This document shows positions 4,805-52,575 of a stretch of DNA of 64,000 nucleotides, piece after piece. Made by a program: the position numbers and the translations under genes. This stretch comes from Styela clava (taxonomy: Eukaryota; Chordata; Ascidiacea; Stolidobranchia; Styelidae). Location: contig NC_135262.1 of assembly GCF_964204865.1 (NCBI RefSeq), positions 4,092,001 to 4,156,000 on the forward strand. Direction: 5' to 3'. The notes beneath the pieces were generated by a model. That model had not been told where the DNA came from. It was given only the letters and a program-made list of their open reading frames with translations, and did no database searches. The number at the start of each line of letters is the position of its first letter. Position 1 is the stretch's first letter.

Positions 4805-4805
4805 C

Positions 4806-8222: not shown

Positions 8223-8229
8223 TTCAGAC

Positions 8230-26253: not shown

Positions 26254-29200
26254 TTACCATTGACATATAGCAAAGCTGAGTAGATCATTGGGATACGTGT
26301 TTGACATTCCTCCGATATCATTCGAATCGGCAAACACTGTCAGATAAACATTTACAAAGCGCCGATGCCAATATCCTGTAAGGAGTTGGGACGAATCTTC
26401 CCATTGAATGAAAGAATCTTCCGTAGATACTTCACCTTTCTGAAGAAATGTGATGAATTAAATATTTTTTTCATGAACCCGGACAAGTTCATGCACATGT
26501 ATGACCCTGTATATGAATATGGCCTAACCCTAACCTGGCACACATACTACGTTCCAGTGTCCGTCATCCATCTTGGTGCACATACTACGGGAGCGCCGAG
26601 TCAACCCGTTCAGAAAACGAATATATACTGTTTATTCCGTGGTATTTAGTAAAGGCACTCACTAATACCAACGGAGCTACCCTATGTTTCCAATTTCGAA
26701 TTTTCGGTTCGGCCAAATATACTTATTATATCAGCCTTAAGGCGGTGACACGGGGTTTCAAACCTTTATCTCTAACCTGCGACGCCAAAATTTATAAACC
26801 TAGTGCGTTGCTAGAAGGGGTGGAGGAATCGATTACAAAATCGTGATTACAGAATCTATGCAAGATTCAAAGGGTGAGGAGGGGGTAAGGTTGATTTCTG
26901 AAATTTCTGTTGGCCAAGTTAGATCTATCAGCTATCGGGTCAGGCTGGGGGTCTTGAGGGTCTAGGAAGCGCTTTTTGAAATGCGCTCTGCTGAAATGCG
27001 TTTTTTTACATTTCAAATTGGGGCTGGCGGGTTGTCCAGAATGTGTATAACTTACCACCGGGTCGAAAATAATTCCAGTCCAAGCGGCCACGAGTTCGGC
27101 GGTTGTAGGTCTTATCATGTTTACAATCCCGTCGTACTCTTCCTTGTTTTTTATCTGTGCTATAGTTGAATTGCTAATCTCACAGAATTTAACAGAATGC
27201 AAATAATCCATATAAAATCCATTGGTATATCTCCCGTACCAGAATACATCACCGCTTTCAGAAATGTAGAAATCTGAATGAATTACGGGTGGGATTTATT
27301 CCTCTGTATATATATATATATATAGAGAGGAATAAATCTGGTAAATCTGGTATATATATATATATATATATATGAATATTTGAACCTGTAAGGTCTCCCA
27401 ACAAGTGGGGAATTCAATTGTTGTAGGGAGAACTACTTTCTCTATGTTTTCTGTATTATTACAAATATTGGTACTCCAGAAGTATGTGCACCAAAATGGC
27501 GAACACCGGAACGTCGTATGTGTACCAGGTTAGGGTTAGGCCATAGTTTTAGGTACGAATACTACGGGAGTCACTTGGCTAGTCACCGAACTCGTAATAA
27601 AACTGGGAAAATTAAAATAAAATTATGACCTAATCCTAAGCCGGTACACATACGACGTTCCGGTGTCCGCCATCTTGGTGCACATACTTCTGGAGCAGGG
27701 GTGGACACTTTCCAAATTTGGGGGGGGGGGGCGAACTTGGATCGCCTACCAAAAAACACCGCGTCGTGTATCGTCACGTAACCATAACCTGTCGATGTCA
27801 TTCTCTAAGTATTAGAATGTCATTTTGCTACTCATATATCGAGTACCTAAGATGCTTCGCTTAGAAACGGAACTTGCGCGCCACTGAACCAATTTCTTGA
27901 ATTCCGCGAGAATTAGCCCACGGCTCTTGCTAACAAACAGAAAATCACAAATTTGAGGAGTCCTATTAGGTTATTGTTTCAATTCCTAGTTCTGCATAAA
28001 TCGCACTAACGGCCGTTTCGTAAAATTAGAAATGCAAAACAAGGTAACAAGCTATTGTGCGAATTTTTTTCCTAAATTTTACCAAGGAATTATCATTTGA
28101 TTAGTAGAATGGCCATTATTGCCGATTTATTGAATCATCATTTGAACTCGAAATAACATTCAGGTTTCACGCAATGACTTTGCAGGGTTCTAAAATGTCC
28201 TTATATATTAATTTAATTGTGTGCAACGTAACTCGCGGCTGCGACTTCTTACCTCAAAATAAAAATGTTACTAAACGAAAGTACCACGGCGATATGTGGA
28301 CATAAAAATATGAGATAAGCTGCCTGATGTATTTAATTTTGATACGTATTTTTGCAATCTTCTGAACTCGTTATCGCCGTTACAAAAATCTCGATATCTG
28401 ATATAAAATCCCATATAGTACAATTTTACTTCATACAATGAAAATAATTATAAAGTATACTAGTAAATCAAAAATACAAATTCACAGCCTCGCGGAACAG
28501 TGGCCGCGATTACGCCACTTGTTAAAAGAGCCCACTTTTTCAACAAAAAATGATTTTTCACTTGTGCAAAGTAATCAATCAAAGACCGATACGGGCATAT
28601 TCAAAATGTCTTGATTTATTAATTTAATTGTCTTCAATTTAAACCGCGGTTGAGTCGACAAAACAAGAGCCACTCTAAAACACCATGGCAATCCGCGGAC
28701 ATAAAAATGTGTGGTAAACAGCCCGTTTATATATTGTTTTGAACCGTATTTTTGCTATTTTGCGTATTCGATAAATTTGAGATGTACTTGTAACACTGGC
28801 TCCGCTCAATCGCAATGTTGTCACTCCGATTATTTTTGAAAATAAAACCTTTTGAAAAATCCGTAATTTTCTGTCAATTCTTACGTAGTAAAAGTTATTT
28901 CAGTACAATAAAAATACATAAATAAATACAAAAGTTGATCGAATATACTTTAATTATCTTATATATCATCACAAACCGGGAAAAATTCGCGTTCTCAGCT
29001 TTGTTTAATGTTACCACGAAACTTTTCGACGTCAATTTGGAAGTAATCGATAAAAGGCAAATCCCGCTCGCAATTGACCATGTTTCGATTTCAGTGACAA
29101 AAATTTTAAAGGTCAAGCAAACATAATTTGTGCGGTAGGCACACGAAATTTTGCGATTTTCGATGCCTAGAAAAGCGTTTTCAGACTGTCGCGGGCCTCA

Positions 29201-32200
29201 ACAATTTCACAGTTTTATTTTTAGTATTTTACATTGCCGCTTTTCAACTTATGGATACTTATTAGAATTCTCGCCAGGTTCATAAGTCTGTGCTTGTACG
29301 AAAATAAATCAATTATCATAGTCATTGTGTCACAAATTTATGATTTAGAGAGGATAAACGCCAACGTAAAGGCGTTTACGACCTAAATAATAAGTCACAA
29401 TGATGAAAACAATCAGCGATTTTAGCAAAGGGCAATTGCACGCGTTATTGGCGACTTTTTCAGTTTTCAAAAAAATTCAGAAGGGGTGGGGGGTATCCCT
29501 TTTAGATAGTTTCTGTGGTCTGAAAAGTCGAATAGGCGTTTCGACATAGTAAACGCTTTGATCTTTGCCCGCAAATTATGCTGGGCCTTGCTCGAAATCC
29601 ATAACGTGAATAGATACGTCCAGCGGTGAAAATTGTTTATAACAACCTTAGATCTATAGTTAAATTTTAATCGATAGTAATTAATTGTTGTAATGAAATG
29701 CAGTTTGCCTCTTTCACTTTACTCGCAAATGCCAACAATAACACTATTGAAAGATTTTGATAATGAGAAAACCATATTAAATTGTACAAAAAGGAATTAG
29801 TTGTGAAAAACCGTGGCGCGTGATCGGCGGTGCGTTTGAAGACGGAGTATTACCCGTGCGGGCGCGCATGTTTCACGAAAATGTCAGGTGCTCCGAAGGC
29901 GCTCTGGTCCACAATATTGTAAGAAAACAGTTATAATATCGGTAACTATTAACCGTTTAATTGCGCTTGACTATCGCACATGTTTATTCCCGCTACAGTA
30001 TCCTTGCATTGTACGCATACGAATCCCCTAGCGCAAAGGCATAGAGGAAGGATTGGGAGTTAGTTTCGCGTAACCTCTACTGATGGCTATATTATTGTAT
30101 TATATATTTATGCGCATATTTACTATTCAAACTGTGCAAAAGCCAGAATGCGAGCCGTACTTATCATGAGATAAAAATTCATTGAATATTAAAAAACAAA
30201 CATAGAGTTTTAAATATATCGATGTGGGAATCAGGATTGGAATTTGTAATTGCCAAGTAAGATCTTATATCGTTATCATTATATCGTCACACTAATAACC
30301 GAATTGCGAAAGTCATTTTTGGCGATTTTGAGTTTTTTTTTTATAAAATAGGTATTTATATAATGCTGAGCACCTGTCTGTTAACTCAGATTTTATTTTA
30401 AGAATTCCGAAACCCATAAAAATGAAGATTTAGTATGACATGCACATTTGTGCAATTGTTTCGTCATAATGAATTATCATCGTTACCGAAGGACTATTGT
30501 GACGTCACAAGAGCAAAATAACCTCTGCGAAGTATTTTCGAGTTTTTGCATCTCGGATTCCAGCTTAGCGCGTATTAATTTATGTTTAAACTACAGTATA
30601 GGAAAGCGTGCACTTGTGATATTCACTGTCCGAGTCCAATTCAACTTGGTTGGATTTTATATTGGGTGCATTGCTGTTTTATTCTTTATATTTAATCTTA
30701 GTCTTATTTCGGTGGGTGTGCAGAACGTGTTATATTGATGAAATATATATTTTTAAACATAAAAAATAATGTAATTGAAACTGATTAGCTATTTTGGGGA
30801 TTAGACATTGTAGATACTGAGAATTACATTCGTTTTTGGAATGTTTAATTTTCAGGACTGGTGCATATAGTAAAATTGCGAATGTCCCCAAGGCATAGAC
30901 ACATTTCTGCCTAAGTCACAGTGCGCCATTATGACGTCACCTAACTGCGTCATACAAATTAACTTAAATCCGGCTACGATAAAAAAAATTGAACCATGGC
31001 AAATTATTGATTCTCAATGGCAAAACAATATCATTAGTAAGTCTTTTACGTTTTTCTCAAAACTGCTAAAAATGACTTACGCAATTCGGTTATTAGCGTG
31101 ACGATATCCTAACCAGGTTTGTTGTTTTGTTTTATCAGTGCCAATTCCTGAAGAATCTGTTCATTACAAAAAGATTAGCACATCGGTGGAAGCTATAGAA
31201 AATGGCATTGTATAAAGCGAAAGGTGTGGCTCATCGTGCTAAGCGTTTGGAATACGCTCGCCACCGCACTTCTGATTACTCCGCGTGGGTTCGCAGGTTC
31301 GAATCCCATGCTGGGATGGTTATGGACGAGAAGATTGCTGGACTCCTCGCCGCCGTAGGGTGGTTCACGTAACCGCTGGTCGGTTACGGCTTCCTCCACC
31401 ATCAAGTCCATTATTCCAACTATATCCCAATATAACTAACTAATTCCATACCCGACATGGGGTGGTGACCGGGCGAGAGGCCGTGGTTCGCCATATGGTT
31501 AAGCCGTCTTGTCAGCTTTCTTCTCCCCGGGGATAAATATGTAATTTAATAGGATAAAAAAAATAAGCTTTATAAAGAAAAATAAAAGATGCTACCTAGA
31601 ACGTATTTAATAGAATCTATCAAGCACATACTGTTTACAGTTGTGGAGATTATAAGAAGTTTGTCAATCACTTGATGTCGCTCGTCGATCTCTTTCTGTT
31701 GTTCGGTAATAATTGCTTTTTGTTTATCTACTATCTGTTGTTTCTCATTTTCTAAACAAAAATTCACTGAAATGATTAATATATGTTATCTAAATTGATA
31801 TTTTATGCGAGATTTTTAAGGAAGTTGTTGGAGCTGAGTATGCTGTCGTGGAAGGTTGAATATATAAGGTTTGAAGATCTTGCCCATCGAATGAGGCCAC
31901 TTCCGAAGTATGTAAACCAAGATGGCGGAACCCGGAACGTAGAATGTGTGTCAGGTTGGGGTTAGGCCATAATTACAGGTACAAATACGGGAGTCAGGTA
32001 ACCAGTAATTCATTTCTTCATCATACTGAAAATACGGACTATACATACACAAATATAAAACAAATCACACTCCAGGGTGATTTAGCAAATTAAAAAATTG
32101 TAGCATAAAAGAACATGTTGTTGAAGTAATTTAATGTAGATAGACACGGAGAACAAACGATGAAGACATTTGAAGAAATTTGAAATCGAATATTCACCTT

Positions 32201-35200
32201 CATTGCATAATCAATTGGCCATAAGATTATTTGCAATTTGAGTAAACACTCTAAGTCTGTTTTCAAGCAATTCATAGAAATTAAGATCCGAATTAATATC
32301 GCCAAAGAAGAACTATACATTGAGAAAGGAAGTAGTACGATAAATGTCCCAGTTAAGAGAAAAATCTTATGTATATATACCAAAGTAAAACAAATTGATG
32401 AATAATATTTTTATTCGATTGTCTTGCTCGATCATTTTTCGCTGTGATCTTTATGAATATCTAAAAGCGTGCGCTTCTTTCGTACGTTTATAAAAGATTA
32501 TCGTTCGTTGAATTTTCACCTTTTATTTTTGAATTCAAACAGAAGTTCATATCGTTCATTGTGCGGACTTTATCCGTCGTCTGATTTTTTTCCGATTTCG
32601 TGCCTTTGTTCCCTCATGCTGTGATACCTTTATTGCTGTACCATCTTTAACGTTGTTGTCGTTGTTTTGTTGGGTCACCTTTAGCGATTTCGAATCCACA
32701 TCAGAAGATTTGCTATTCTTTGGTCGGGGTCACCAATTAATTTAAGATAGTGGTCCTAAATATAACTTGAGTCGACGTACGAGATCTTTCGTAGCTATTT
32801 AATCGGAGTACGGGCTCTTGTCTTTTAACTTGCACGAATTTTCTGTTATGTATGCGCTTGCCCCCAGCAGACAATAGATGAAGACATGACGACACGACAC
32901 CGATCCAGACGACATGACTCCTAGTCCTAATACAAGACCTTTCAATACATTCCTTCTTCAATACCTTACCCCCAAATATCCAATTGAAATCTTTTTATAC
33001 GTATGTGCGTATGGTGATATCGATTCCATTAGGGTTATCGATTCGGGTTTGGAATACTAATTACCATATGTCATCGATTCAATTATATTTTTGGTTGTCA
33101 TCTGTTTGTCTAATTACAACGGGAACTATATCGATCCAATTCATGAATTTGGAGAAATTAGCAATTTCCAGTCTTTTTAATGAATTTTACCTGAAATAAC
33201 GAATTTATCCCCAAAGTGATACTGGTTATCGAATGGCGACACTCTAAAATCGTCCTAACGTGTCATATCCGCTCGTGCATGACACTGTTGGAAGTGAATT
33301 TGTAAAAAAATTTATTGAAAAGGAATGAACTCAAAACTGATTTTGGGTGACAAATTTAGAAACATTACATTTAAAAGAACTGAAACCTTTGGGAAGGGGG
33401 TATATTTATTTGGCTAACACAGACAATCCCCGAACTCGTAATAGAACAAAATAAAGAAAATTGGAATACAATTTTTCCCCAACCCTGGCCTGGTACATAT
33501 ACCACGGGAGTACCGAATATTCGTTCAATGCAACATGATAAAAAAATCTTTAATTAGAAGAATATACCAAGGATTCGTTGACTGCTAAAATTATACAAAT
33601 CACGACTCACTTAGAAGTAATCCATAAACCAATCCAACTGCGAAGAGAACCAGAAATGAAGCAATGATCGCGATGAATAGTTTTTTGTGTTCAGTCTCTG
33701 GTGGTAGTGAAACATGTTAAAAGGTAAAATATATTAATTCATTTTAAATTGAATGTTTTTTTTATAAAAAGTGACATTTTGGATGCACAATAAGATAGCG
33801 ACTTAACAACAATGAAGAAGTTTGTAAAAAAAAATAAATATTTTCATAACTATCTTTCATACCGCTCACATTACGACGCTCCATAAGTGTGTGTACCAAT
33901 ATGGAGGTAACTAATTTTGTTCGCCTATTTACAGCAAGTTGTGTAAAGGGACTGAAACCTATGGGAACGGGGTATATTCACTTGGATAAAACAGACAGTC
34001 CCGAACTCGTAATAAAACTAGAATAAGGAAAATCGGAATAAAATTATGGCCACACTGCGGGAATACCCACGTCACGGCTGTAAAAATGTTTAAAAAATAA
34101 TACTTTACCAAATTTTATTTTGTGATATATATATATATATATATACAAAGACTTAACTCCAATACAAACTATGTGAAATGTAAAAAATGGAATAAAATAT
34201 TTTCTCAAATATGGTCCATATCACTTAAAAGTTCAACTACTTTATCGTTCGTTGTATAGATTTCTCGGAATGAAAAAAAAATTGGGTGCTCTCGAAGTAT
34301 GTGAACCAAGATGGCGGACACCGGATTTAATGATTTAATTTTTTTTACCATTCACTTTTTCATTTTTTTCCAATTTGATTTTCGATGGCCGACTGTCTAT
34401 TTTATCGAAGGTCTTTATTCCAGGTTCTTTGTTTTTGTTAGCTTTAAAAAATATACAAAAATCGTGACGAAGTGAGCTTAAATTGTATTGACAATATTTA
34501 TATTAATATAGGATTTGCTTGACTATCTGATGGAAAAAAAAACGGTAAGACGACTCAATCATATCGAAGATCACTGCCTATAGTCCAATTGTCAGTCAGT
34601 GGCGTATCTACGTAGAATGGCACCAATGGAAAAATTTGAAAATGCGTCCCACTATGATCGTTGGGTGACAATTTATAATGAATATTGTTGAAATGAGGTA
34701 TTTGTACGTTATTATTGCTGCAAAAATATGAGTTTAAGTTATTTCCAATTTGAAAATATTTTATCCTGTAAAATTTCGTCTTACTCTACATCAAAAAACT
34801 GAATCAACTATCAAGTCTGATTGGAAAATGAATTTGGCAGTAATTTCAGACAAAAAGTTATATATATTCAACCACTAAACTTAATCGTTCAGTTTAGTGG
34901 TTCCGAACCGGGATCCTGGGAAATCTAGGGAATAAGGAAAAGTCCTGGAGAGTTCATGATATTTGACTATTTGGCCTTGCGTATCTTATATATATGCAAA
35001 GAGTTCTGGGCAGGCAAGATCTTGGATCACCCTCCAAAAGCAGTTTCGATGCGCAGCTGTCATGAACATTTGAATTAGAGACCCCTTCCTGGTACATCAG
35101 CGCACCGCGGCCAACAACAACATTTCTGAAAGTCATCTTAAAAAGGGGCGCATGGCTATTTTAATACAAATGGTTGCTATAAATGTATTACGTTCTACCT

Positions 35201-36008
35201 TTCACTTTTCCGATCTTTTCCAATTCAATTTTCGATGGCCGACTTCCTATTTTATCAAAAGTCTTTGTTTCGGATTCTTCTTTCCTGTCATCTTTGAAAT
35301 AAAAATATCGAGAGGAAGTGAGCTTATATTGTATTGAGATTTTTATAATGGGATTGGATTTTCTTGTTTATCTGGAAGGAAACAAAAGTCGGTGAGACGA
35401 CTCAATCATAAGATCACTGTCTATTGTCCAATTTCCAGTCAGTGGTTTATCTACGTAAAATGGCGTTCATGGAAATTTTGAAAATCCCCGCTTTTTTGGC
35501 GCCCTTGTTCAAACGATATCCAGTATGGACTAGTTTTGTTGACTGGGCTACAATTTTCAGGCGAGTGGACGAAAGGGTTCATTGCGCTGAAAAGGTTGTG
35601 AAACACTTTAAAATTGCATGTCACGCGGTTGGGATAGGACAGTGCTAATATTTATCTCGGAGGGAAGGGGAAGACGATAAGGCGGACAAATCATATGTCG
35701 AACCACGGCCTCTCGTCCGTTTACCTGTCCACGTCGGGTGTGGGATTATTCAGCCAGTGATTCGTTTTCAGATGCATGGACTTGATGGTGGAGGAAGCCG
35801 TTATGAGGGAATATGATGAAAATTCAAAACTTTATTCCCAAAGGGGAAGAAATTCAGATTCTATACTCGGCCTAACTATTATAATATAAATAAATACATT
35901 CGCTTAGCTTACTTTTTATTTTTTTAATTTTCTCTAATTTGACTTTCGGTGATTTACTGCCAATTCTCTCCGGGGTCATGGTTTCCGTCTTTCGTTCGTT
36001 GTTTATCA
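26254..36008 (-). CDS. Type II membrane C-type-lectin-like protein, gene B (5' end unresolved)
   Basis: Seven coding exons on the minus strand: 35913-36008, 35199-35291, 34349-34441, 33611-33697, 31632-31751, 27056-27273, 26254-26439 (stop TAA 26254-26256). The first five are phase 1 on both sides; the last intron is phase 0. Exons 1-3 are homologous 30-31 residue lysine-rich cytoplasmic repeats (KTFDKIGSRPSKIELEK and variants). Exon 4 is a membrane span (LFIAIIASFLVLFAVGLVYG) after TEHKK. Exon 5 is a charged coiled-coil stalk (KQKAIITEQQKEIDERHQ). Exons 6-7 form a C-type-lectin-like domain: SVKFCE, IKNKEEYDGI, AAWTGIIFDP, TEDSFIQWED, and the end SFAICQW. Only the outer cysteine pair is evident, and no EPN/QPD or WND calcium motifs. 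No start codon exon was identified; an in-frame ATG inside exon 35913-36008 could serve. Function unknown; a cell-surface recognition role is inference. Confidence 0.72.
26519..26598. repeat. MITE fragment (superfamily M)
   Basis: GGCCTAACCCTAACCTGGCA, then CACATACTACGTTCC, and the terminal CACATACTACGGGAGCG. It lies just upstream of gene B's last exon. Confidence 0.75.
27302..27375. repeat. Paired TA microsatellites
   Basis: Two (TA)n tracts separated by a short spacer, AGAGAGGAATAAATCTGG. Located in the gene B intron just 5' of exon 27056-27273. Confidence 0.9.
27470..27697. repeat. Foldback MITE (superfamily M), full-length, gene B intron
   Basis: Left end GTACTCCAGAAGTATGTGCA, right end GTGCACATACTTCTGGAGCA, with inner TTAGGGTTAGG segments. 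Confidence 0.9.
28000..30280. other. Gene B intron with a diverged internal direct repeat
   Basis: No exon or recognisable gene seen. About 28,185-28,390 and 28,600-28,790 resemble each other: both contain ATTAATTTAATTGT, then an ACC(AC/AT)GGC-type stretch, GGACATAAAAAT and CCGTATTTTTGC-like motifs. This suggests an old duplication or two copies of an unknown repeat. Confidence 0.45.
30282..31110. mobile_element. DNA transposon, about 830 bp with about 45-bp inverted ends, copy 1
   Basis: Starts ATATCGTCACACTAATAACC and ends GGTTATTAGCGTGACGATAT, with complementarity extending through AATTGCG.AAGTCATTTTT. A second copy lies inverted at 48,727-49,556. The internal 96-residue frame has no recognisable domain, so it is nonautonomous. 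It sits in a gene B intron. Confidence 0.85.
31222..31545 (+). mobile_element. tRNA-derived SINE, most complete copy
   Basis: The head carries a polymerase III-like A box (TGGCTCATCGTGCTAAG) and a strong B box (GGTTCGAATCC near 31,295). The body GGGTGGTTCACGTAACCGCT and GAGGCCGTGGTTCGCC follows, ending in GGGGATAAATATGTAA. It lies between the gene B stalk exon and the lectin-like exons. Confidence 0.8.
31898..31995. repeat. MITE fragment (superfamily M), gene B intron
   Basis: Left arm only: CTTCCGAAGTATGTAAACC, AAGATGGCGGAACCCGGAAC and AGGTTGGGGTTAGGCC, ending ACAAATACGGGAGTCA. Confidence 0.75.
33383..33515. repeat. MITE fragment, superfamily M subtype b
   Basis: GAACTGAAACCTTTGGGAAG, CTCGTAATAGAACAAAATAA and a terminal TACCACGGGAGTACC, adjoining gene B's membrane-span exon. 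Confidence 0.7.
33880..34075. repeat. MITE, superfamily M subtype b
   Basis: Starts GCTCCATAAGTGTGTGTACC, has TTTGTTCGCCTATTTACAGC and GTCCCGAACTCGTAATAA, and ends near CACTGCGGGAATACCC. It borders segment X of the inverted duplication. Confidence 0.8.
34287..34325. repeat. MITE end fragment (superfamily M)
   Basis: GTGCTCTCGAAGTATGTGAA followed by CCAAGATGGCGGACACCGG, cut off at the start of the cytoplasmic-exon unit. Confidence 0.75.
35650..35805 (-). mobile_element. SINE fragment in arm 1
   Basis: Minus-orientation SINE body (CCACGGCCTCTCGTCCG, GATGCATGGACTTGATGG) truncated at GGAGGAAGCCGT. It is absent from arm 2. Confidence 0.7.
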
Positions 36009-36140
36009 CTTTAAAACATATATATTTCTGCAGAAGTTATTTGGTCTGAAATACAAGAGAGTAATGTTCAAATATATGGACACGAAAACCAAAACGAAGC
36101 AGTACGAGTATCTAATCTTTCACACTACCGGTACGTAAGC

Positions 36141-36428
36141 CTAGTCTTTCGTCGCGTCACGACTAACCACCAACCGCCACAAGATAATGAAGCCCCAAAG
36201 CTTCAGCCTACCTTGCATAATGGAAAATCTGTCCCTGATTGCGATAATACAAAACAACTCAACAATGATAGTTAAAACTACACCAACTACAAAATAATAT
36301 TTCTGTATTTCCCCCCGAGAACAATGAAAAGGAAGTAATTCCTCCACCGTTCTCTCTACTAAACGAACTTCAAAATAGGAATCATTTTTACAAGCCCCCG
36401 CCAAACAACAACTCCGGCCAACGCGCAA
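36141..36428 (-). other. Uncharacterised frame with one hydrophobic segment in arm 1
   Basis: A 95-residue minus-strand frame. Residues about 43-65 form a strongly hydrophobic stretch (YYFVVGVVLTIIVELFCI) followed by AIRDRFSIMQ, with a usable phase-1 donor (CAAG/GTAGGC, donor at 36,211). The phase would be compatible with gene B exon 35913-36008. It could be an upstream coding exon of gene B, an unrelated relic or chance. No family recognised. Confidence 0.25.
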
Positions 36429-36491
36429 AACAAGAAAATTAGTATTTATTCAGATTGGATTTGGGGTATGAATGTAGATTGCACTGGATAT

Positions 36492-36920
36492 TTATATTTT
36501 TAAATCATCTCCAACTCCAACTTTAACCCCAACTGGATAATTAAGAATATTATTCAAAAACGTGGCGGGTGTTTTTCTCAAATCGCACATTTTTGCATTA
36601 GGCGGAGACTTTGTACAAAACATCCCAAAATAGATCGAAAATTTATAGTAAAAACATCTGCGAGCTTGTTCCTCTAAAACAACGAATGAGATAAATGGAC
36701 ACCGACGTAAATAAAGCTCCATTAAAACCTGTTTCACTTTTAACCTGTACCTCATTACCTCATGTAATGATTTGATGAAAGACATTTGAGGTAAATAGAA
36801 AAAAATTGTAATTTTATGGACACTGTACGACAAAGAACAATTTGAGCAAATCACCCGTAGATTGTTCTTTAAATTCAGCGAAAAAATATTTGTTGTTTTC
36901 GATCGCCTTGCTTCTAACAT
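36492..36920 (-). other. Uncharacterised frame conserved in both duplication arms
   Basis: A 142-residue minus-strand frame starting MLEARRSKTTNIFSLNLKNN. Its counterpart in arm 2 (plus strand, 41,474-41,800) keeps about the first 75 residues with few changes and then diverges at the duplication breakpoint. No domain is recognised, and conservation may only reflect recent duplication. Confidence 0.25.
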
Positions 36921-37127
36921 CTGATACTTATCGCAAGTAGGATAGTTGCACAGAGAGCCCTTTAAATTATTTGATGCATTCCATGTTCAACAACAATTCA
37001 ACTTTCCTTCATATGACGCATACGAAGTATGATTTCGCTCCGAAAAAGGCGCTATTGAAACAAAACCGAACGCAATATTTCGAGTTTGACATAAGCTACA
37101 CAATTCATACAACCCCGAGTGGGGTGC

Positions 37128-37340
37128 TGGACGCTCCAGAAGTATGTGTACCAATATGGATGTAACTAATTTTGTTCGCCTACTTTACATCAAGTTGTGT
37201 AAAGGGACTGAAACCTATGGGCACTATTTAGTTGGCTAACACAGACAATCCTCGAACTCGTAATAGAACTAAAATAAGGAAAATCGAAATAAAAATACGG
37301 CCTTACCCCAACCTGGTACACATACTACATGAGTACCGTG
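37128..37340. repeat. MITE, superfamily M subtype b, edge of arm 1
   Basis: GCTCCAGAAGTATGTGTACC at the left; CCTAC-TTTACATCAAGTTG and CTGGTACACATACTACATGA at the right. The same MITE flanks the mirrored block at 41,040-41,265. Confidence 0.85.
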
Positions 37341-38564: not shown

Positions 38565-39510
38565 AAGATTTGAGAAACTTCCATAATATTTATGTCAGAG
38601 GGCGTGCTTGTTTTTTTATGGGACAAAAATCTTGGACAAAAATATTATTCAATCAGCAGAGTTGGTTGGCCGTGTATATAGTGGAGTTGCGATCTGGTTT
38701 GTTTCTTTAAAATATATTAGACACAAGTACAACTCTTGATCTGTTTGAAATTTTGTTATTATTGCAACAAAACATATTTGTCTTATTCTATATTCATATA
38801 CTGTAACAATCTACTTTAGTAGTTAGAAAGAAAGGAGTCTTTTAAAAGACTCAAGCGGAACTATAGTTCTGCTTGAAATTTTGTTTTCATTGTAAAAAAA
38901 ATACATTATATATCCATAACTATAACAATTCAGTTCAGTAGTTGGAAAGGAAAGTGTCTTTTATGTATAAGTCTAATATTTCGTGTTTTTCAAATCGTCT
39001 CTTGGATGCTATTTTTATTTTTTTAAAATGTAAAATTCGACGATTCATTCTGCTGCGTAATAATCTTATGTGACTCTCAATTGAGAATTATAAATATCTA
39101 TTTATGCGGAACTGCGAAGGGTGTGAAAAAGCTCCATATAAAAAACAGTAGATGACACGGAAAAAATGTAAAAACGAAAAACATTTGAGTTTACGAATCA
39201 TCTATTAGAAGCACTAGTTACAACGTCTCGAGTTAATTATTATGACAGTTGATAAATTGATAATCGCAGTTTAAGTCATCATTGTAAGACAAGGGGTCTC
39301 AGAGCAGTTGGAGGTGGCCACAATGCTAGGCGCAAAACTGAATATACATTTCCCCTTCACAAGCAAACTAAACAAGTAAAATAATAGTTAAAATCAGTTC
39401 AATGTATTTCTCAATCATTTTTCTGTATTATATATATACTTTGCAGTAAACTATTACTGATCCATAATTTTATTCTCTATGTATTGTTTTGTAGAAACTA
39501 ACATAAAACA

Positions 39511-42500
39511 ATGAGTCACTTATCAGCATCATCAAATAAAGAAGAAGATTTTGAAACAAATAAAAGTAATATTAGATGCTTTTTTTAAATAAAATGTTAA
39601 AATATGGTGGAATGTTACAATGTATCTGATTTAAGTAAGGCATTATTACAAGGTTCTAAGTAAGGTTCAAAACAAACTACGATACTTATTCACAATCCTA
39701 TCAAGGCCCTGTACAATCAGTCACCAATATTTAACTATACGTTAGTTAACAGGGATGGGCAAGGTTGTTTACCAGGGGCCAAAAATATAACCTGGTGAGC
39801 CACGTAAGTGTGACGTAAAAAGTTACATTTTATGAAAAATATTTACAGTGTTACAAAAGTAAATGCGGAAAGCAATAAGCCTTGTGCCAAAACTAAATTT
39901 AATCGCAATCTCAGCAAATTCCTTGAGCATTTTTTTTAGCTAAAACATCAAAATTTGCTTTTAGTTGTGGCAGCATCAGGCGGGGTACCCAGCGGGCCGG
40001 ATTTAGTCCGCGGGCCGTAGTTCGCCCATGTCATCGCTTGTTTGAAATAACCGTAATCCATTAATCCCAACCTATCTCATTAATTCCTCTTTAACCCTAC
40101 ATTCTTCCCCCACTATGCACAAAAACTACCTTGTTTATTCAATCTTTAATACATCCTTTGTTAGTCGCACTCCCGTTTTTGTTTAAGTAGTTTATAATGT
40201 GTATAGTTTATAATAAGTTTTATAGTAATAATAATGCAAACCTAAAAAATACTAGTAATACTACAACAACTGACTGCTTTTATCTAGCCTTGTTCGGAGC
40301 AAAGGCGCGAGTTTGCGTCGTATTCATCAATTTACAAAAAAAAAAATTGCCCCTAAAAAAATGAACTGGCTACGATTTTGAATAACAAACCGCCAATGGT
40401 ATTTACAGCTCCATGCCCGTCCTATTATTTCATTCATTGGAAATATTAAATTATATTCTGTATTTTAGCAGATAAATCCGATGTCAACACAGAAGCTGGA
40501 GATTCGAGCATAAATAAAAGTAATACCTATCTTTGTTTGCCCAAATATTTGACTCCGTCATTTTCAGATCAGATTGCTGTGTTTAATTTTATACCATTCT
40601 TTGGTACTCCCGAAGTATATGAACCAATATGGCGGAAACCGGAACGTAGTATGTGTACCAGGTCAGGGTTGGGCCATAATTTTAGGTACAAATACTACGG
40701 GAGTCACTTGGCTAGTCCCCGAACTCGTAATAGAACTAAAATAAGGAAAATTGGAATAAAATTATGACCTAACCCTAACCTGGTACACCTACACGTTCCG
40801 GTGTCCGCCATCTTGGTTCACATACTTCGAGAGCACCCAATTTTTCTCATTCCGAGAAATCCATACAACGAACAATAAAGTAGTTGAACTTTTGAGTGAT
40901 ATGGACCATATTTGAAAAAATATTTTATTCCATTTTTTACATTTCACATAGTTTGTATTGGAGTTAAGTCTTTGTATATATATATATATCACAAAATAGC
41001 ATTTGGTAAAGTATTATTTTTTAAACATATTTATAGCCGTGACGTGGGTATTCCCGCAGTGTGTGTACCAGGTTAGAATTAGGCCATAATTTTTATTTCG
41101 ATTTTCCTTATTCTAGTTTTATTATGAGTTCGGGACTGTCTGTTTTAGCCAAGTGAATATACCCCCTTCCCATAGGTTTCAGTCCCTTTACACAACTCAA
41201 TGTAAAGTAGGCGAACAAAATTAGTTACATCCATATTGGTACACATATATACTTCTGGAGTGTCCAGCGCCCCACTCGGGGTTGTATGAATTGTGTAGCT
41301 TATGTCTAACTCGAAATATTGCGGTCGGTTTTGTTTCAATAGCGCGTTTTTTGGAGCGAAATCATACTTCGTATGCGTCATATGAAGGAAAGTTGAATTG
41401 TTGTTGAACATGGAATGCATCGAATGATTTAAAGGGCTCCCTGTGCAACTATTCTACTTGCGATAAGTATTAGATGTTAGAAGCAAGGCGATCGAAAACA
41501 ACAAATATTCTTTCGCTGAATTTAAAGAACAAACTACGCGCGATTTGCTCAAATTTTTCTTTGTCGTACAGTATCCATAACATTACAATTTTTTTCTATT
41601 TACCTCAAATGTCTTTCATCAAATCATTACATGAGTTAATGAGGTACAGGTTAAAAGTGAAACAGGTTTTAATGAAGCTTTATTTACGTCGGTGTCCATT
41701 TATCTCATTCATTGTTTTAGTATTTAGGGCGCCAAACGGGCGGGGAATTTTAAACGTAATATTTTTAAATTTTTCCATGAATGCCATTTCACGTAGATAA
41801 AACACTGACTGGAAATTGGACAATAGACAGTGATCTTATGATTGAGACTTCTCACCGACTTTCGTTTCCTCCCAGATAAACAAGAAAATCCAATCCCATT
41901 ATAAAAATCTCAATACAATATAAGCTCACTTCCTCTCGATATTTTTATTTCAAAGATGACAGAAAAGAAGAACCCGGAACAAAGACCTTTGATAAAATAG
42001 GAAGTCGGCCATCGAAAATTAAATTGGAAAAGATCTGAAAAGTGAAAGGTAAAACGTAATACATTTATAGCAATCATTTGTATTAAAATATCCATGCGCC
42101 CTTTTTTAAAATGACTTTCAGAAATGTTGTTGTTGGCCGCGGTGCGCTGATGTACCAGGAAGGGGTCTCTAATTCAAATGTTCATGACAGCTGCGCATCG
42201 AAACTGCTTTTGGAGGGTGATCCAAGATCTTGCCTGCCCAGAACTCTTTGCATATACATAAGATACGCAAGACCAAATAGTCAAATATCATGAACTCTCC
42301 AGGACTTTTCTATATTCCCTAGATTTCCCAGGATCCCGGTTCGGAACCACTAAACTGAACGATTAAGTTTAGTGGTTGAATATATATAACTTTTTGTCTG
42401 AAATTACTGCCAAATTCATTTTCCAATCAGACTTGATAGGCTTCTAGTTGAGTCAGTTTTTTGATGTAGAGTAAGAGGAAATTTTACAGATTAAAATATA

Positions 42501-45500
42501 TAAAAATGTGATACATAAAAGTGTGACGGCTCTGTACACACTGGTGGCCACTTCCAACCAATTTTTGCAAGTCTAATACGGAAACGTGTGTGAGTAAAAG
42601 TGTCAAGTCTTCGTACACATGAAACAAATAACTGGTTAATTATTCATATACCCGGCGTAAACAGGCAGCAGTGGCGCATCTAGGGTGCGGTTCAAGCCAT
42701 GGGCGCTGTTTGGACAAGGGCGCAAAGTTTTAATCCAAAAATGTTTCAATAAAATATTTTCCAATTGGAAGTAACTTAAACCCACATTTTTACAGCAATA
42801 ATAACGTACAAATACCTCATTTCAATAACATTCATTATAAATTGTCACCCAACGATCAAAGTGGGACGCAATTTCAAATTTTTCTATGGGTGCCATTTTA
42901 CGTAGATACGCCACTGACTGACGATTGGACTATAGGCAGTGATCTTCCATATGATTGAGTCGTCTTACCGGTTTTCTTTTCCCATCAGATAGACAAGCAA
43001 ATCCTATATTAATATAAATATTTGCAATACAATTTAAGCTCACTTCGTCACGATTTTTGTATATTTTTTAAAGATAACAAAAACAAAGAACCTGGAGTAA
43101 AGACCTTCGATAAAATAGGCAGTCGGCCATCGAAAATCAAATTGGAAAAAAATGAAAAAGTGAAAGGTAAAACATAATACATATAAAGCAATCATTTGTA
43201 GTAACATACCCACCCGATTACAGACCTCTCTTTTCAAACAATTTCCAGACATGTTGGAAATGCTACAGAAATTTCGGTACTCCCCTAGTATGTGAACCAA
43301 GATGGCGGACACCGGAACGTAGTATGTGTACCAGGTTAGGGTTAAGCCATAATTTCAGGTACAAATACTACGGAAGTCACTTGGCTAGTCTCCGAACTCG
43401 TAATAGAACTAAAATAAGGAAAATTGGAATAAAATTATGACCTAACCCTAACCTGGTACACATACTAAGTTCCGGTGTTCGCCATCTTGGTTCACATACT
43501 ACGGGAGCACCGAAAGCACGTCGTTTTAATGAAATAGTGTAATTATGGCACTTAGTTAATGAATATATAGGAATAATTCATGGCGCTCCAGAAGTGTATG
43601 TGTCAATATGGATATAACTAATTTTGTTCGTCTACTTCACACCAAGTTGTGTGAAGGGACTGGATCATATGGACAGGGGGTGTATTCACTTAGCTAACAC
43701 AGACTGTCCCCGAACTCGTAATAGAACTAAAATAAGGAAAATCGGAATAAAATTCTGGCCTAACCCTAACCTGGTACACACAGTACGGGAGTACCTAATT
43801 TTTTTAGCTCAGTAAATCACCATAATTGGTAGCTAAAAATCATTATTTATATTTTGTCTCTTTGAACGATTCGACGCTTTTAAACGCTATTTTTGTTTGC
43901 GCAGGTTCTTCAGACGGAGACGGAAAATGTTGCAATTCGATAAAAGGTAAAAGGAAACTTTCTTATTTCTAATACTTTGAGCTCCGTTTTGAATTACAAC
44001 CAGGGCTGTCGGTTCCGGGCCGGAGTTTCACTTTTTTGATAGGAGTCACATTTTCATTTCATTGCCCGGAGTGGTAATTTCATAGTTTAAACGATAATTG
44101 ATGATAATAAATAATATTTCAAGTTGAAATTCAATTGGAATTCAAATGGAAATGTTTTGACTAATATTTTGTTTTTCTTTACTTATTCCCTGTCTTCAAC
44201 AGTAACTGCTCATAAGAAGCCCATACTCGCAACATTTGCGGTTTTCTTGGTTCTTGTTGGATTGACTTTGGGATTGGTCTTCAAGTTTAGTAAGTCAAGT
44301 TTCATATCATCAATTGTCGATTATCGGTTTTTCTTATATCTTGCCTCCTTTCGCTCCGGAAAAGATCGCTATAAAAGCATCCACTGATATCTTACAACAT
44401 GTAACAAGCTGATACTAATATTTGGAACGACCGGAACCTTTGCGATCTGGCATTACCTACCCGATTTATTACACCCTACCCAGAGTGCAGTGTGTTTTGA
44501 AGAGTGTTCCGCGGAACACTGCTGTTCCGCGAGCTTGTTCGGAGTGTTCTGCGGGACGGGGATCGAAATTGCGACTAGATTGGTCGCCATGGCGATCTCG
44601 GCAGAACTTCGGCGCTTCTGGGTTTTAAATTTGTCTCCCAACAGGCGACAAACAGGCGGGCGGGCCTAGAGTCAGTCTGGATAACATGGCGTTTTTGTGA
44701 ACCGTGCAATATCGATAACCGCCGGCGTAATTTTTTAATTGTCAAGTTTACATCAAACTTTTTAATATTACCATAAGCTAAATTTTTTGGAAACACTCCT
44801 TCCCAATAGATTGTTAGCTTAAAACTGTAAGCCTCAAAAGATGTCGTGATAAGCCGGTTGTGCAAGTTGATGCAAAAAGTTAATTCATTACGCAATTTTT
44901 GTTATCAATTTTACCTCCTAATTTCTTGATGTTCCGCGGGGCGAGATAAAAAGCGTAGGTGTTTCGGGGCAACAAAAGTTTGAGAAACAGTGCCCTTGAA
45001 TTTAATTTTTTTTTTTTCTAGGAAAAGAAATAAATGAGTTGGAACTTGCTATAAATGAACAAACTGAAAAGATTAACGAACAAGGAACAAAAGCATTCGA
45101 GCAATTGAAAAAGATAAATTTTTTCCGAGCTGTTTTAATCCATCAAGGTGGGTATTCACTTATTCAACGTCACAAATATCAATGACTTGCCCATAAACGT
45201 CCTTTCAAGCTGTTGCGCAATGCGTTTACAAACGTGGTTGGCAGAGGAAGACGCAACCGATATCAAATCATACTATGAATAAAAATATTTCGTCGATATA
45301 ACTTATTGAACGGAATCAAGCTCGTCTCGTTGCAGATTTATTTTGTGGCAATTAATCACTGACGCACATAGACGAAAGTCACTTCTACAATCCTGTTGTT
45401 CTAATAATATTCCCAGCCGAATCGCTCAAAAGCAGTGGTTCTCTAACTTTTTAAGGCGAGCACCCTTTTCAGGAACTGTCAAGTCTCGCGCCCCACCTCA

Positions 45501-48500
45501 AAAATAACATGCTACAAATAAACAAGAGAGCAATGCTCAAATATATGGACACGCAGAACAATTCCCCGAAAATCATATGCGGTGACCAACGACTAACATA
45601 CCGGCGGTGACTTACCAGTACCTGTATCGGGGTACCGTGACGGTACAGGGACTGTCATAGATATTTTAGGTCCTGTGACAATTGAAACATCAGTTGAAAT
45701 ATCTCGTGATATGAGTCAATTATGTACCGTATTATCGGATCAGGTACCGAACCACAGTCAAACATTTCAGATAAAAACGTTACTAAATAACATGCGTCAA
45801 CTTAACACCAGCCGAATCGGGGTACAATTTTTGGTACAGTGACTGTCATAGCCGTTTAGGGCTGATGGACAATTCGACTACACGGACAACTCACCAGGCC
45901 TAGGGTGGTGTAGCCAGTCTGCGGACAATTTCATTCAAACCGCTATAAAACAAAAACCAATATATCTAACCCGTTAATTTTTTTCACCGTGGGTGCATTG
46001 GCGGCATTTATTCTACACGCTAAACCTCGTATTAACTTTCTACGACAAAGGGTTGAAGCTATACAAATCCCCAAAGTACGGCACTCGAAAGACGTATTTG
46101 CGACCGAACGACCAGTGTGCGACCACGGATTTCAAGCCTTGATCATCGTTTATGCTGCGTCGAGACTATCGCATACGCAGCCATACAGCAATCAAACAGA
46201 CAAAACACGGTGGTCGCAAATTGGTTGACAATTGTTGGTCTTGTGACAGCGTGAAAACATTGGGCTTCTAATTGCATTTCTGACCGTCATATATTTCAAG
46301 AACACGGTTATTTCGAACAAAACTCGTTAAATTATAAACAAAGCACCACATCACAGCAATCAAACAGACGAAAACACGGTGGCCGCAAATTGGTTGACAA
46401 AGATATTATCGACGTATCGGAAATGCACACCCCCTATTCCCCCTCCTTCAAATGTAGAAACGCGAAACTTTCAAATATGATTAAAAGAAACACAACTCTA
46501 CCCACCTGCCAAGTTTCATCTTTTTATTTCTCATACTTGTATGGATTTTCAAGCTTTTGACAGCTACGAGTTAGTTCAGTGTCACCGCGCTGTGTTACGG
46601 TACCAGAACTCCTGTCTTGTGACAGCGTGAATTGAAATTGCAAGATGGTCCGTTGGACACAAAATGGCGTCCGATATCCGCAGAACGTTTAGTGACGTCA
46701 TAGCAAACAAAAACAAATCTTACAGAGCTAACAGGAATATTTGAAATAAATAAAAGTAATAGCCTTCTGGAGAAAAATTTCATCTTCAACCACTGAAAAT
46801 TTCAAAGCAATTAGTCCAGTAATCAAAGAGAAAAGCGACTTTTTAAAAACGTGTCAAAGAACAAGAACAACAACAAGAACAAGAACAAGAACAACAACAA
46901 CATAATATTGAAACGATCGTTATGTCCACTACGTGTCCAATAATAGTAAGGCTCCATGCTAAGAATACTAAAAATACAAGCACAACAGCGCTCTGCAATC
47001 TCTAAACAATGAAGAAATTTAAATATCCGAAAAATGGCGGGCAAGATCAAATCTAACAAATATTTATTGGACACGTTTGGTGGACTTGACGATCGTTTCA
47101 ATATTAAGTTGTTATTGTTATTATTTGTCTCCATCATTTTTGAAAAATCGCTTTTCTCTTCGAATACTGAACCAATTGCTTTGTTAAAGATAAAATTTTT
47201 CTCCAGAAGGCTATTATTATTATTTTTGCTATGACGTCATCAGACGTCATCAAAATTATTGCCATTGGGTGGCGCTACGTGTCCATATATTTGAGTATAG
47301 CTCTCTTGTATTTTAATTAGCTTCACGACCTCTCGAAAAATTGTCTACGCCTCCTTTGTGGGGCGTGCCCCACCGTTTTAGAACCACTGTTTTACAGTCT
47401 TAGTTTTACCTTGATAGTCGCCCGTAATCTCGCTCTGAGATTAGCGTTCTCTGTTTCGGATTAAGAGTGCTCGACGTTGCTTTGAGTAAATTTTCTTGAA
47501 AAAAAATTTACAAACACTTTCATTGCTGTGATCTGCAGCCGAAAAACACAGCGCAAATCATGTGACTCTCGTGGTTTTCCATATGGTTGAGCCGTCTTAT
47601 CGGCGTTCCTCTCCCCCGGGATAAATATGTATATCCTATCCTTGTTCTTTGCGTTACTGCCTATTGTTATGACAAAATCGCTTTTTTTCTTCAACTATCG
47701 GACCAAATGATTTGAAATTTTCAGTAGTTAAAGATTGTACTTTTCGCTATTACTTTAATTTAATACTAAATTTTCTATGAATTCTATAATCTGATATTTC
47801 ATCCAAAATTTTGCTGTATTATATTTTCTCACTCATGGAACACTGTTTTCAACTTATTTCAAGCGGTTTCTCGATTGAATATCAGACCTACAGGTACGGT
47901 ACTGGTAAGTTACCGCATATGGATTTTCAAGGAATTGATGATAAAATATTTTGTCTATACATTTGAACATCTTTCTCTTGTTTTATTTAGAATATGTCAT
48001 CCGCAATGACGGCGTAATAATATGGTACAATAACCAAATACGCAATCACGCCTATTATCAGGCTTCGAGGCTTTGCAATCAATACAACTCAACACTCGTA
48101 AAAATAAGAAATAAACAAGAATACATTGCAATCAAGGACTTGGTGAATAATATCCAAAACTATCCAAAAACTTGTTGGACTGCACTGATATACGATCCTA
48201 TGGTAAAGTTGCAATATAGGCTATCTATTGAAGTAAAACACAGTAGGATATATATATGATATGATTGATGCACATAATCAGAGAGATAAAAGAAAATTTC
48301 AAGCAACTTAATTTTCGTTTGTGGAATATGTTGTATTACCAATCCAGCTGTCCATCTGGTACTCCCGTAGTGTGTGTATCAGGTTAGGGAATAATTTTAT
48401 TCCGATTTTCCTCATTTTAGTTCTATTACGAGTTCAGGGACTGTCTGTTTTAGCCAACGACTAACATACCAAGCCAAGTGAATATACCCTCTATCCATAG

Positions 48501-50056
48501 GCTTCCACCCCTTAACACGATTTGATGTAAAGCAGGAAAACAAATTTAGTTACCTCCATTGGTACACACTCTTCCGGAGCGCCGTCAATCCTATACGTTG
48601 CTTATATTTTTAATATGGAAAAGATCTAGCAAAGAATATTGTTAAAATGAAGGCACTTTCGTTTACAAAAGCTAGAAAAAAAATATATATATATAAAAAA
48701 CATTTGTTCCCTCATAAGTTATATATCGTCACGCTAATAACCGAATTGCGTAAGTCATTTTTAGCAGTTTTGAGAAAAACGTAAAAAACTTTCTAATGAT
48801 ATTGTTATGCCATTGAGAGTAAATAATTTGTCATGATTCAATTTTTTGATCGTAGCCAGATTTAAGTTAATTTGTATGACGCAGTTAGGTGACGTCATAA
48901 TGGCGCACTGTGACTTAGGCAGAAATGTGTCTATGACTTGGGGACATACGCAATTTTGCAACTTTACTATATGCACCAGTCCTGAAAACTAAACATTCCA
49001 AAAGCGAATGTAATTCTCAGTATCTACAATGTCTAATCCTCAAAATAGCTAATCAGTTTCAATTACATTATTTTTTATGTTTTAAAATATATATTTCATC
49101 AATATAACACGTTTTGCACACCCACCGAAATAAGACTAATATTAAATATAAAGAATAAAACAGCAATGCACCCAATATAAAAGCCAACCAAGGTGAATTG
49201 GACTCGCACAGTGAATATCACAAGTGCACGCCTTCATATACTGTAGTATAAATTCAAATTAATACGCGCTAAGCTAGAATCCGGGTTGCATAAACTCGAA
49301 AATACTTCGCCGAGGTTATTTTGCCTTTGTGACGTCACAATAGTCATGTGGTAACAATGATAATTCATTATGACGAAACAATTGCACAAATGTGCACGTC
49401 ATACTAAATCTTCATTTTTAGGGGTTTTGGAATTCTTAACCAAAATCTGAGTTAACAGCCAGGTGCGCAGCATTACACGAATACCTATTTTATGAAAAAA
49501 CTCAAAATCGCCAAAAATAATGACTTACGCAATTCGCTTATTAGCGTGACGATATATATACATCCTATTGGAAATCATCGACCCGTGGTTGCAGTAGAGT
49601 TGATAACTTGTCTACTGTCTTGAAACACGTCCTCCTGCCCCAGATATTTCATGTTGCATCACAGAGCTTCGCAACAAAAAAATATCAGCACATGCAATCC
49701 GTGGACCTTCTGTAGAATGCCGCAAGGTAATCACAGGTGCGGTGGCGAGCGTATTTTTAACGCTTAGCATGTTGCGCAACTAAGCCGGGCTAATATTCAA
49801 TATATATACCAATATATAGCCAATATATATAACAATATTTTATCATGCACAGACGTTTTACCCGAATATATTCTAAACCTGTATTTTGTTTCAGACGGGC
49901 CGAGTAACACCGGAAGATTCTTTCGTTCAATGGATGGAAAATTTTCCATTGATTAATTCGGAAGGGTCAAGAAATCTCGTTTTTGTTGTGACGCGTAACA
50001 CTGATGGATTGGGATACGAATATTACTCGCCGGACTTCGGTCTATGTGAACTATAA
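39511..50056 (+). CDS. Type II membrane C-type-lectin-like protein, gene A
   Basis: Exons 39511-39565 (ATG; acceptor AG just upstream at 39493-39494), 40469-40519, 43905-43946, 44203-44289, 45022-45147, 47991-48202 and 49895-50056 (TAA), all GT-AG. They join to 244 residues; all introns are phase 1 except the last, phase 0. Residues 1-49 are a polar cytoplasmic tail with a KCC pair at 43-45. About 56-76 is one membrane span (ILATFAVFLVLVGLTLGLVF) after HKK. About 79-120 is a charged coiled-coil stalk. 121-244 is a C-type-lectin-like domain with ASRLCNQ (Cys149), IRNKQEY, CWTALIYDP, EDSFVQW and the terminal FGLCEL (Cys242). The inner cysteine pair and calcium-site motifs are not seen. A further intact phase 1-1 exon at 43074-43166 could be included (275 residues). 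Membrane and lectin-like exons align with gene B, including identical 87-bp membrane exons. Role unknown; cell-surface recognition is inference. Confidence 0.74.
39750..40030. mobile_element. hAT-like nonautonomous element, gene A intron 1
   Basis: Starts CAGGGATGGGCAAGG and ends GGGCCGTAGTTCGCCCATG, roughly inverted ends. The interior is related to 18,768-19,030. No clear target duplication. Confidence 0.65.
40603..40838. repeat. Foldback MITE (superfamily M), full-length
   Basis: About 236 bp: GGTACTCCCGAAGTATATGA at the left and TTCACATACTTCGAGAGCACC at the right, both flanking GATGGCGGA/TCCGCCATC segments. In gene A, between exons 2 and 3. Confidence 0.9.
41045..41262. repeat. MITE, superfamily M subtype b, in arm 2
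   Basis: GTATTCCCGCAGTGTGTGTA at the left and TGGTACACATATATACTTCT at the right. Mirror of the copy at 37,128-37,340. Confidence 0.85.
41956..42048 (+). pseudogene. Duplicated cytoplasmic exon with in-frame stop
   Basis: Reverse-complement copy of gene B exon 35199-35291, same 93-bp length and splice sites. The codon that reads GGA in gene B is TGA here (42,036-42,038). If spliced into gene A it would truncate the protein before the membrane span. Confidence 0.8.
43074..43166 (+). CDS. Intact duplicated cytoplasmic exon, possible optional exon of gene A
   Basis: 93 bp between TTTTTTAAAG and GGTAAAAC, phase 1 on both sides. It encodes NKNKEPGVKTFDKIGSRPSK and then IKLEKNEKVK. It is the mirror of gene B exon 34349-34441. 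It lies in gene A between exons 40469-40519 and 43905-43946 in the same orientation and frame, so it could be spliced in. Confidence 0.55.
43276..43512. repeat. Foldback MITE (superfamily M), full-length
   Basis: GGTACTCCCCTAGTATGTGA at the left, TCACATACTACGGGAGCACC at the right; inner GTTAGGGTTAAGCC and CTAACCCTAACC. Confidence 0.9.
43584..43797. repeat. MITE, superfamily M subtype b
   Basis: GGCGCTCCAGAAGTGTATGT at the left, TACACACAGTACGGGAGTACC at the right. It lies just upstream of gene A exon 43905-43946. Confidence 0.85.
45521..47310. mobile_element. CAAGAGAG-end foldback DNA element, copy with empty site
   Basis: Starts AACAAGAGAGCAATGCTCAA followed by ATATATGGACACG. Ends with the complement: CGTGTCCATATATTTGAG, then TATAGCTCTCTTG. 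An internal inverted pair (about 46,740-46,938 and 47,083-47,225) makes the 3' part a hairpin. The 45,521-46,938 part is nearly identical to 52,576-56,162 minus an insertion. An older hAT remnant flanks it (GGTTCTCTAACTTTTT at 45,436; TTTTAGAACCACTG ending near 47,393). In the gene A intron between stalk and lectin-like exons. Confidence 0.82.
47570..47640 (+). mobile_element. SINE tail fragment
   Basis: GTGGTTTTCCATATGGTTGA, GCCGTCTTATCGGCG and CCCGGGATAAATATGTA match the 3' end of the SINE at 31.2 kb. Confidence 0.65.
48357..48585. repeat. MITE, superfamily M subtype b, gene A last intron
   Basis: GGTACTCCCGTAGTGTGTGT at the left and TTGGTACACACTCTTCCGGAG at the right; the interior has GTTCTATTACGAGTTCAGGG. 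Confidence 0.85.
48727..49556. mobile_element. DNA transposon, about 830 bp with inverted ends, copy 2
   Basis: Inverted relative to copy 1 (30,282-31,110). Starts ATCGTCACGCTAATAACCGA, ends GCTTATTAGCGTGACGATAT. Interior landmarks such as TGACGTCATAATGGCGCACT match the reverse complement of copy 1. It lies in gene A's last intron. Confidence 0.87.
49728..49790 (-). mobile_element. SINE head fragment
   Basis: GTAATCACAGGTGCGGTGGC, then GAGCGTATTTTTAACGCTTAG, matching the complement of the tRNA-like head. It is about 100 bp before gene A's last exon. Confidence 0.6.
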
Positions 50057-52527: not shown

Positions 52528-52575
52528 CTGTTGAAAATAAGTTATAATTGAAGAAAAACAAACTATTTCACTTTA

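Follow-up and report, generated by a model that had tools for sequence, protein, structure and literature searches.

The window analysed here, a 64,000-nucleotide stretch of Styela clava DNA, contains two genes that point away from each other, gene A on the minus strand and gene B on the plus strand, with exons lying between positions 26254 and 50056. From the membrane exon onward the two models follow the same course, with a single membrane exon, a stalk exon, and a C-terminal lectin-like domain (CTLD) divided between two exons, and in both the membrane exon is preceded by a tail rich in lysine. With basic residues on the N-terminal side of the membrane segment and the CTLD at the C terminus, both proteins would adopt a type II orientation, with the tail inside the cell.

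Exon structure of genes A and B

To build the gene models, we located the exons and checked splice sites, phases and translation. Gene A comprises seven exons that join into 292 codons without an internal stop and end at a stop codon, and GT-AG borders are found at every internal junction in the models of both genes. Exon 1 of A (35913..35979; all A exons are on the minus strand) supplies the ATG and the first copy of a lysine-rich tail repeat (MTPERIGSKSPKVKLEKIKKIK), while exons 2 (35199..35291) and 3 (34349..34441) are tandem copies, each a 93-nt tail repeat of phase 1-1. Exon 1 can be aligned to both of these copies, and the match extends upstream to an acceptor-like TTTTAAAG, so that it could be an internal exon instead; its ATG occupies the position of a lysine codon in the other two copies. 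Exon 4 (33611..33697) is an 87-nt transmembrane exon whose best 19-residue Kyte-Doolittle mean is 2.77. Exon 5 (31632..31766) encodes the stalk and measures 135 nt in this model; a second AG lies 15 nt downstream, in frame, and would shorten the exon to 120 nt, both acceptors being possible. The CTLD is encoded by exon 6 (27056..27273; 218 nt, N-terminal half, entered in phase 1 and left in phase 0) and exon 7 (26254..26439; 186 nt, C-terminal half and stop codon), and AATAAA occurs 545 and 549 nt 3' of the stop.

The tail of the predicted A protein is 90 residues long, with 28 Lys or Arg and 16 Asp or Glu residues and no tyrosine. Its ectodomain of 179 residues has cysteines at positions 4, 76, and 177, of which two belong to the CTLD and the remaining one lies at the start of the stalk. 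In A as in B, one strong hydrophobic segment follows the lysine-rich tail, and it contains no charged residues. The stalk is probably helical, as judged by eye from its composition.

In gene B the reading frame is open from the second tail-repeat copy onward: it passes through a candidate 42-nt exon, the membrane and stalk exons and both lectin exons, and ends at a stop codon. The copy of the first tail-repeat exon (B2, 41956..42048; all B exons are on the plus strand) carries an in-frame TGA, and the next tail-repeat exon (B3, 43074..43166) is open. The candidate tail exon that follows (B3b, 43905..43946; 42 nt, SSDGDGKCCNSIK) is predicted from splice sites and frame only and has no counterpart in A. 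The transmembrane exon (B4, 44203..44289) is again 87 nt long, with a best 19-residue Kyte-Doolittle mean of 2.69, and is followed by a stalk exon of 126 nt (45022..45147), the N-terminal half of the CTLD (47991..48202; 212 nt, phase 1 in and 0 out), and its C-terminal half with the stop codon (49895..50056; 162 nt). The known part of the B tail amounts to 50 residues, none of them tyrosine, and the ectodomain of 168 residues has cysteines at 73, 106, and 166, all three in the CTLD.

The 5' end of B looks damaged. A search of B with the A exon 1 peptide found the repeats B2 and B3 together with chance-level matches, and no start exon. In each of the four frames leading upstream from B2, B3, B3b, and B4, a stop codon is reached before any Met. 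Downstream, the 744 nt searched after the B stop contain neither AATAAA nor ATTAAA. We considered an open reading frame in block X, a duplicated segment described below, as a first exon of B (41474-41800, with a copy in 36495-36986), and dropped it because the copies differ by nine nonsynonymous and one synonymous changes over 80 codons, which makes it look like a chance frame. The exon with the TGA is of phase 1-1, and leaving it out of the transcript would keep the reading frame, so B may not be dead. As assembled, B has no visible start exon, and it is probably either 5'-disabled or dependent on an unrecognised first exon.

These models bear out much of an initial annotation of the locus, which had proposed divergent genes with 87-nt membrane exons, phase 1-0 lectin-like exons of 218 and 212 nt, and terminal exons. 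The stalk length of 120-126 nt given there agrees with B as modelled and with A if the second in-frame acceptor is used. The exon plan it described as common to both genes is shared from the membrane exon to the lectin exons; it does not extend to the whole of the genes, as B has the TGA, no recognised start exon and the extra 42-nt candidate.

Paralogy and the lectin-like domain

Over the membrane segment, the stalk and most of the lectin-like domain, A and B are identical at 56 of 175 residues (E 4e-27, two-sequence BLASTP without composition adjustment), and on this comparison the predicted proteins are paralogous beyond chance. In a codon alignment the same residue is found at 59 of 194 positions, corresponding to a protein identity of about 30%. 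The three codon positions are identical at 97, 107, and 84 of the 194 sites, figures that fit coding constraint only modestly and are biased, since the alignment was made on protein.

Compared with the Pfam Lectin_C model (PF00059, cut-off 22.6 bits), B passes with 27.4 bits (E 5.8e-6), whereas A falls short with 18.5 bits (E 0.0035); A is counted in the CTLD superfamily because of its homology to B. Other Pfam matches of the two CTLDs lie far below their respective cut-offs. Sequence searches of the PDB with each spliced CTLD alone returned nothing significant, the best E value being 0.12 for both. A profile combining the two CTLDs matched Ly75/DEC-205 at E 7.7e-5 (profile positions 23-91 of 134) and the mannose receptor at E 0.0033 (positions 22-84 of 134). 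Profile matches at E 0.2-1 were disregarded because selectins and a mosquito lectin were mixed there with transaldolases. AlphaFold modelling of exon 6 alone gave a mean pLDDT of 55, too low for a fold search, and the order strand-helix-strand-helix (E-H-E-H). The identity between the two genes, the Lectin_C score of B and the PDB profile matches support the earlier proposal that A and B would be paralogous lectin-like membrane proteins, with A itself below the Pfam cut-off. The two best PDB profile matches are of another build: Ly75, with a chain of about 1700 residues in the match, and the mannose receptor are long multi-CTLD proteins, and A and B have one CTLD each.

Those C-type lectins that bind calcium and sugar carry the motifs EPN or QPD, and WND. 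None of EPN, QPD, and WND occurs in the CTLD of A (134 aa) or that of B (124 aa). A CTLD devoid of these classical motifs would most likely bind a protein or another surface ligand, in adhesion or recognition. Both proteins also retain a single NST sequon, and the two sequons coincide in the alignment.

Near-identical tails and diverged ectodomains

An inverted-repeat search and a self-BLAST of the window revealed that A and B form a mosaic, in which near-identity is limited to the tail half; this is the main addition to the initial annotation. The tail-exon block of A (34343..35485, minus strand) has an inverted copy in B (41761..43172, plus strand), and the match includes the introns, at 94.3% over 424 columns (42749-43172) and 95.0% over 739 columns (41761-42499). 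About 250 nt between these two parts of the B block are missing in A. In contrast to the 94-95% identity of tail exons and introns, the membrane-to-lectin exons are 44-53% identical between the genes, with identical aligned columns numbering 49/93 for exon 4, 59/135 for exon 5, 104/218 for exon 6, and 85/186 for exon 7. Within the blocks, exons and introns are similarly conserved (87/93 in exon versus 615/637 in intron for one, 89/93 versus 310/329 for the other), as expected from a recent copy.

Two further blocks accompany the tails. Block X (36674..37326, minus strand), upstream of A, is 92.6% identical to 41058-41720 on the plus strand, and the 1.2 kb that come next in A, containing exon 1, have no long match upstream of B. 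Block W (33890-34325 versus 40797-41245) is 89.9% identical and consists in part of a repeat present elsewhere in the window. The order of the blocks is X, exon 1, tail exons, W in A, and W, X, tail exons in B. The near-identical tail blocks, the diverged exons downstream and the different block orders together indicate that copying or rearrangement of the tail half took place long after the ectodomains split, and tail exchange or late copying between the inverted paralogues explains the mosaic best.

Allelic copies in some highly polymorphic invertebrates reach the 92.6-95.0% identity seen in these blocks, so that the inverted near-identical segments might be thought an artefact of assembly or haplotype, leaving only the diverged ectodomain exons as two genes. 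We consider such an artefact very improbable, however, because the block order differs between A and B and because the B tail block stands directly upstream of B's own membrane exon and in the same orientation.

Constraint on the tail repeats

Comparison of the tail repeats within each gene gave a dN of 0.195 and a dS of 0.655 for exons 2 and 3 of A (dN/dS about 0.30), and a dN of 0.108 and a dS of 0.464 for B2 and B3 (dN/dS about 0.23), values that derive from 90-nt exons with at most 20 differences. These low ratios suggest that the repeats were once, or are still, coding. The intron sequence flanking the repeats is identical at 158 of 192 positions and the repeat exons are no more alike; the dS of the repeats exceeds the divergence of the flanking intron, for which we have no explanation. 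Between A and B, the tail exons differ by six nonsynonymous and two synonymous changes in addition to the TGA, and hence display no visible constraint since the copy was made. We also searched with exon HMMs, which were built from the exons of A, B, and an isolated relic exon (C4, see below), so that strong matches to these same exons carry no evidence. The frame of A exon 1 matched the tail model at E 0.0014, and no further match was better than E 0.12.

Tail exons that have diverged between the two genes no differently from the adjoining introns, the damage in B, and introns rich in repeats and transposon-like insertions are what would be seen if both genes were decaying pseudogenes, their open frames being leftovers and the tail blocks only a recent inverted repeat. 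Yet A retains seven exons with intact splice sites and its full run of codons free of stops, and both CTLDs have stayed open at their present level of protein divergence. That both genes are in decay is thus distinctly unlikely.

Relatives and genomic setting

A third membrane exon, C4 (52449..52527, minus strand), survives as an isolated relic of 79 nt, which is not a multiple of three, with a TAG at the end of its frame. By tblastn it matches B4 at E 1.2e-5 and the membrane exon of A at E 0.003. In the 40 kb on either side of the window, tblastn found no relative of A or B better than E 0.18. Across the 376.6-Mb assembly, where 150 of the 698 candidates received a score, we counted at least 149 matches to PF00059. 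Neither A nor B is among the places listed, as expected for a domain that is split and divergent.

The case for a working receptor cluster bears on these observations. In this alternative, both genes would work as parts of a recognition cluster that resembles the NK receptors and evolves fast, with B employing an unrecognised first exon and skipping its TGA exon. B is indeed open from B3 onward and has a better lectin score than A, the C4 relic shows that the copy number was once above two, and the assembly-wide PF00059 matches indicate that CTLD genes are many. Opposed to these points are the want of a recognisable start exon in B, whose four upstream frames examined all lack a Met, the lack of AATAAA or ATTAAA in the searched sequence after its stop, and the fact that relatives of A and B appear neither in the 40-kb flanks nor in a CTLD array elsewhere on the contig. 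We consider a functional cluster of this kind unlikely.

The array just mentioned lies on the same contig at 4.53-4.65 Mb, about 0.4 Mb from the window. It contains four exons for the N-terminal half of a CTLD, which are set apart from one another, resemble each other closely and have a WIGL motif. It was examined as a possible parent cluster (120 kb searched) and rejected on two grounds: the best match to an A or B exon reached E 0.18, and its CTLD looks different from those of A and B.

Several repeats are interspersed with the genes. The segments 30280-31107, in intron 5 of A, and 48723-49556, in intron 6 of B, are inverted copies of each other (92.0% over 839 columns); with its terminal inverted repeats, the element looks like a DNA-transposon-type insertion. 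A direct repeat (45519-46427 and 52574-53481) is 99.1% identical over 909 columns and is likely a young mobile element, one copy being located in the B intron after the stalk exon and the other beside the relic membrane exon. Members of a short repeat family are found at 11397-11590, 27463-27697, 40599-40844, 43269-43516, and at other places, and certain copies lie in facing orientation. A 28-base piece of this repeat (exact at 11397-11424) has 10 matches in the window at two or fewer mismatches, and none in viral or prokaryote contigs.

A Pfam scan of neighbours covered 10 open reading frames of the window. A single-exon frame on the plus strand, at 57253-58131, is PGAM5-like (Pfam His_Phos_1, E 1.8e-20; PDB 5muf, E 6.3e-76), and a reverse-transcriptase fragment at 7526-8272 on the minus strand matches RVT_1 below the cut-off (E 9.9e-6). 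Genes for tRNA-Arg (acg) at 4732-4805 and tRNA-Gly (tcc) at 5626-5698 are the only Rfam matches in the window.

Comparison with known receptor systems

Signalling receptors of the NK type have a tyrosine motif in the tail or a charged residue in the membrane, although not every group V member does. Tyrosine is absent from the A tail and the known part of the B tail, and the membrane segments of both are uncharged. The initial annotation had likened the locus to clustered NK-type receptors; this likeness finds weak support, given two genes and a relic exon within 64 kb, 40-kb flanks in which no relative was found, the two CTLD exons, the two or three CTLD cysteines and the tyrosine-free tails.

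The receptors of the NK complex (group V, including the KLR and DECTIN-1 cluster) resemble A and B in having a tail, a membrane exon, a stalk exon and a C-terminal CTLD, and in being multi-copy. In mammals, these lectin-like receptors have one exon each for tail, membrane and stalk, a CTLD spread over three exons, and six cysteines that are conserved in it (PMC3322459). By comparison, A and B differ in their two CTLD exons as against three, in their CTLD cysteines (two in A, three in B, as against six), and, for A, in a tail of three exons as against one; they have one membrane and one stalk exon. The CTLD exon and cysteine counts and the multi-exon tail thus place A and B outside the mammalian NK-complex receptors, with which they share the general plan.

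Within group V, carbohydrate binding has been lost, according to a section of PMC514892. By architecture, the nearest described invertebrate analogues are the tunicate CD94-like receptors BsCD94-1, of type II with a CTLD, and CiCD94-1, described as lacking the ability to bind carbohydrate (PMC5465252). PMC514892 finds no group V genes in Fugu, and calls this at odds with studies naming homologues in a tunicate and in cichlids.

The proposed tail transfer has a parallel in cattle and goat, where KLRH-like genes are described as having acquired KLRC2-like tail and membrane parts in an inverted region (PMC5350243). In the relevant portion of that report, non-allelic homologous recombination is called likely, not proven, by its authors (PMC5350243). 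Chicken BG genes, as presented in part of PMC4046983, encode a long cytoplasmic tail of heptad repeats on several cytoplasmic exons and have formed hybrid genes by recombination. Their repeat-built, multi-exon tails are like those of A and B, but the extracellular part of BG is Ig-like and not a CTLD (PMC4046983), and we take the likeness as analogy rather than kinship. In the open-licence literature we recognised neither a published description of a gene pair like A and B nor, in keeping with the initial annotation, a family with lysine-rich repeat exons in the tail.

Discussion

Taken together, the observations are best explained if A and B are old paralogues whose proteins cross the membrane once, with a lysine-rich N-terminal tail inside the cell and a stalk leading to a C-terminal CTLD outside. 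Long after the ectodomains had diverged, the tail exons with their introns would have been copied as a block of DNA between the inverted loci, possibly by non-allelic recombination, gene conversion or segmental inversion. Either this event or a later deletion may have deprived B, in this assembly, of a recognisable start exon and placed a stop in one of its tail repeats. Given these defects, A is probably the working gene and B is probably 5'-disabled or reliant on a first exon that was not recognised. As a whole, this account of old type II CTLD paralogues, late tail copying, a working A and a 5'-disabled B seems to us fairly probable. An immune-recognition role for the two proteins may be envisaged.

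What the copying might achieve is a more tentative matter. It could hold the module of repeat-exon tails constant, and with it an intracellular output common to both proteins, and leave the lectin-like ectodomains at liberty to change; this is a suggestion we would advance with considerable doubt. Similarly speculative is the notion that such uniform tails would parallel the tail transfer described within the mammalian NK complex, but at a locus outside it and with a tail that is tyrosine-free and rich in lysine.

Should B simply be dead and A only one among numerous divergent genes with a CTLD, the locus adds modestly to a superfamily that is already very large. If the tail copying is real, the pair would show in compact form, and beyond the mammalian NK complex, how receptors swap output and recognition parts, and the lysine-rich, tyrosine-free tail built from repeat exons would point to a mode of signalling or anchoring unlike that of ITAM and ITIM.
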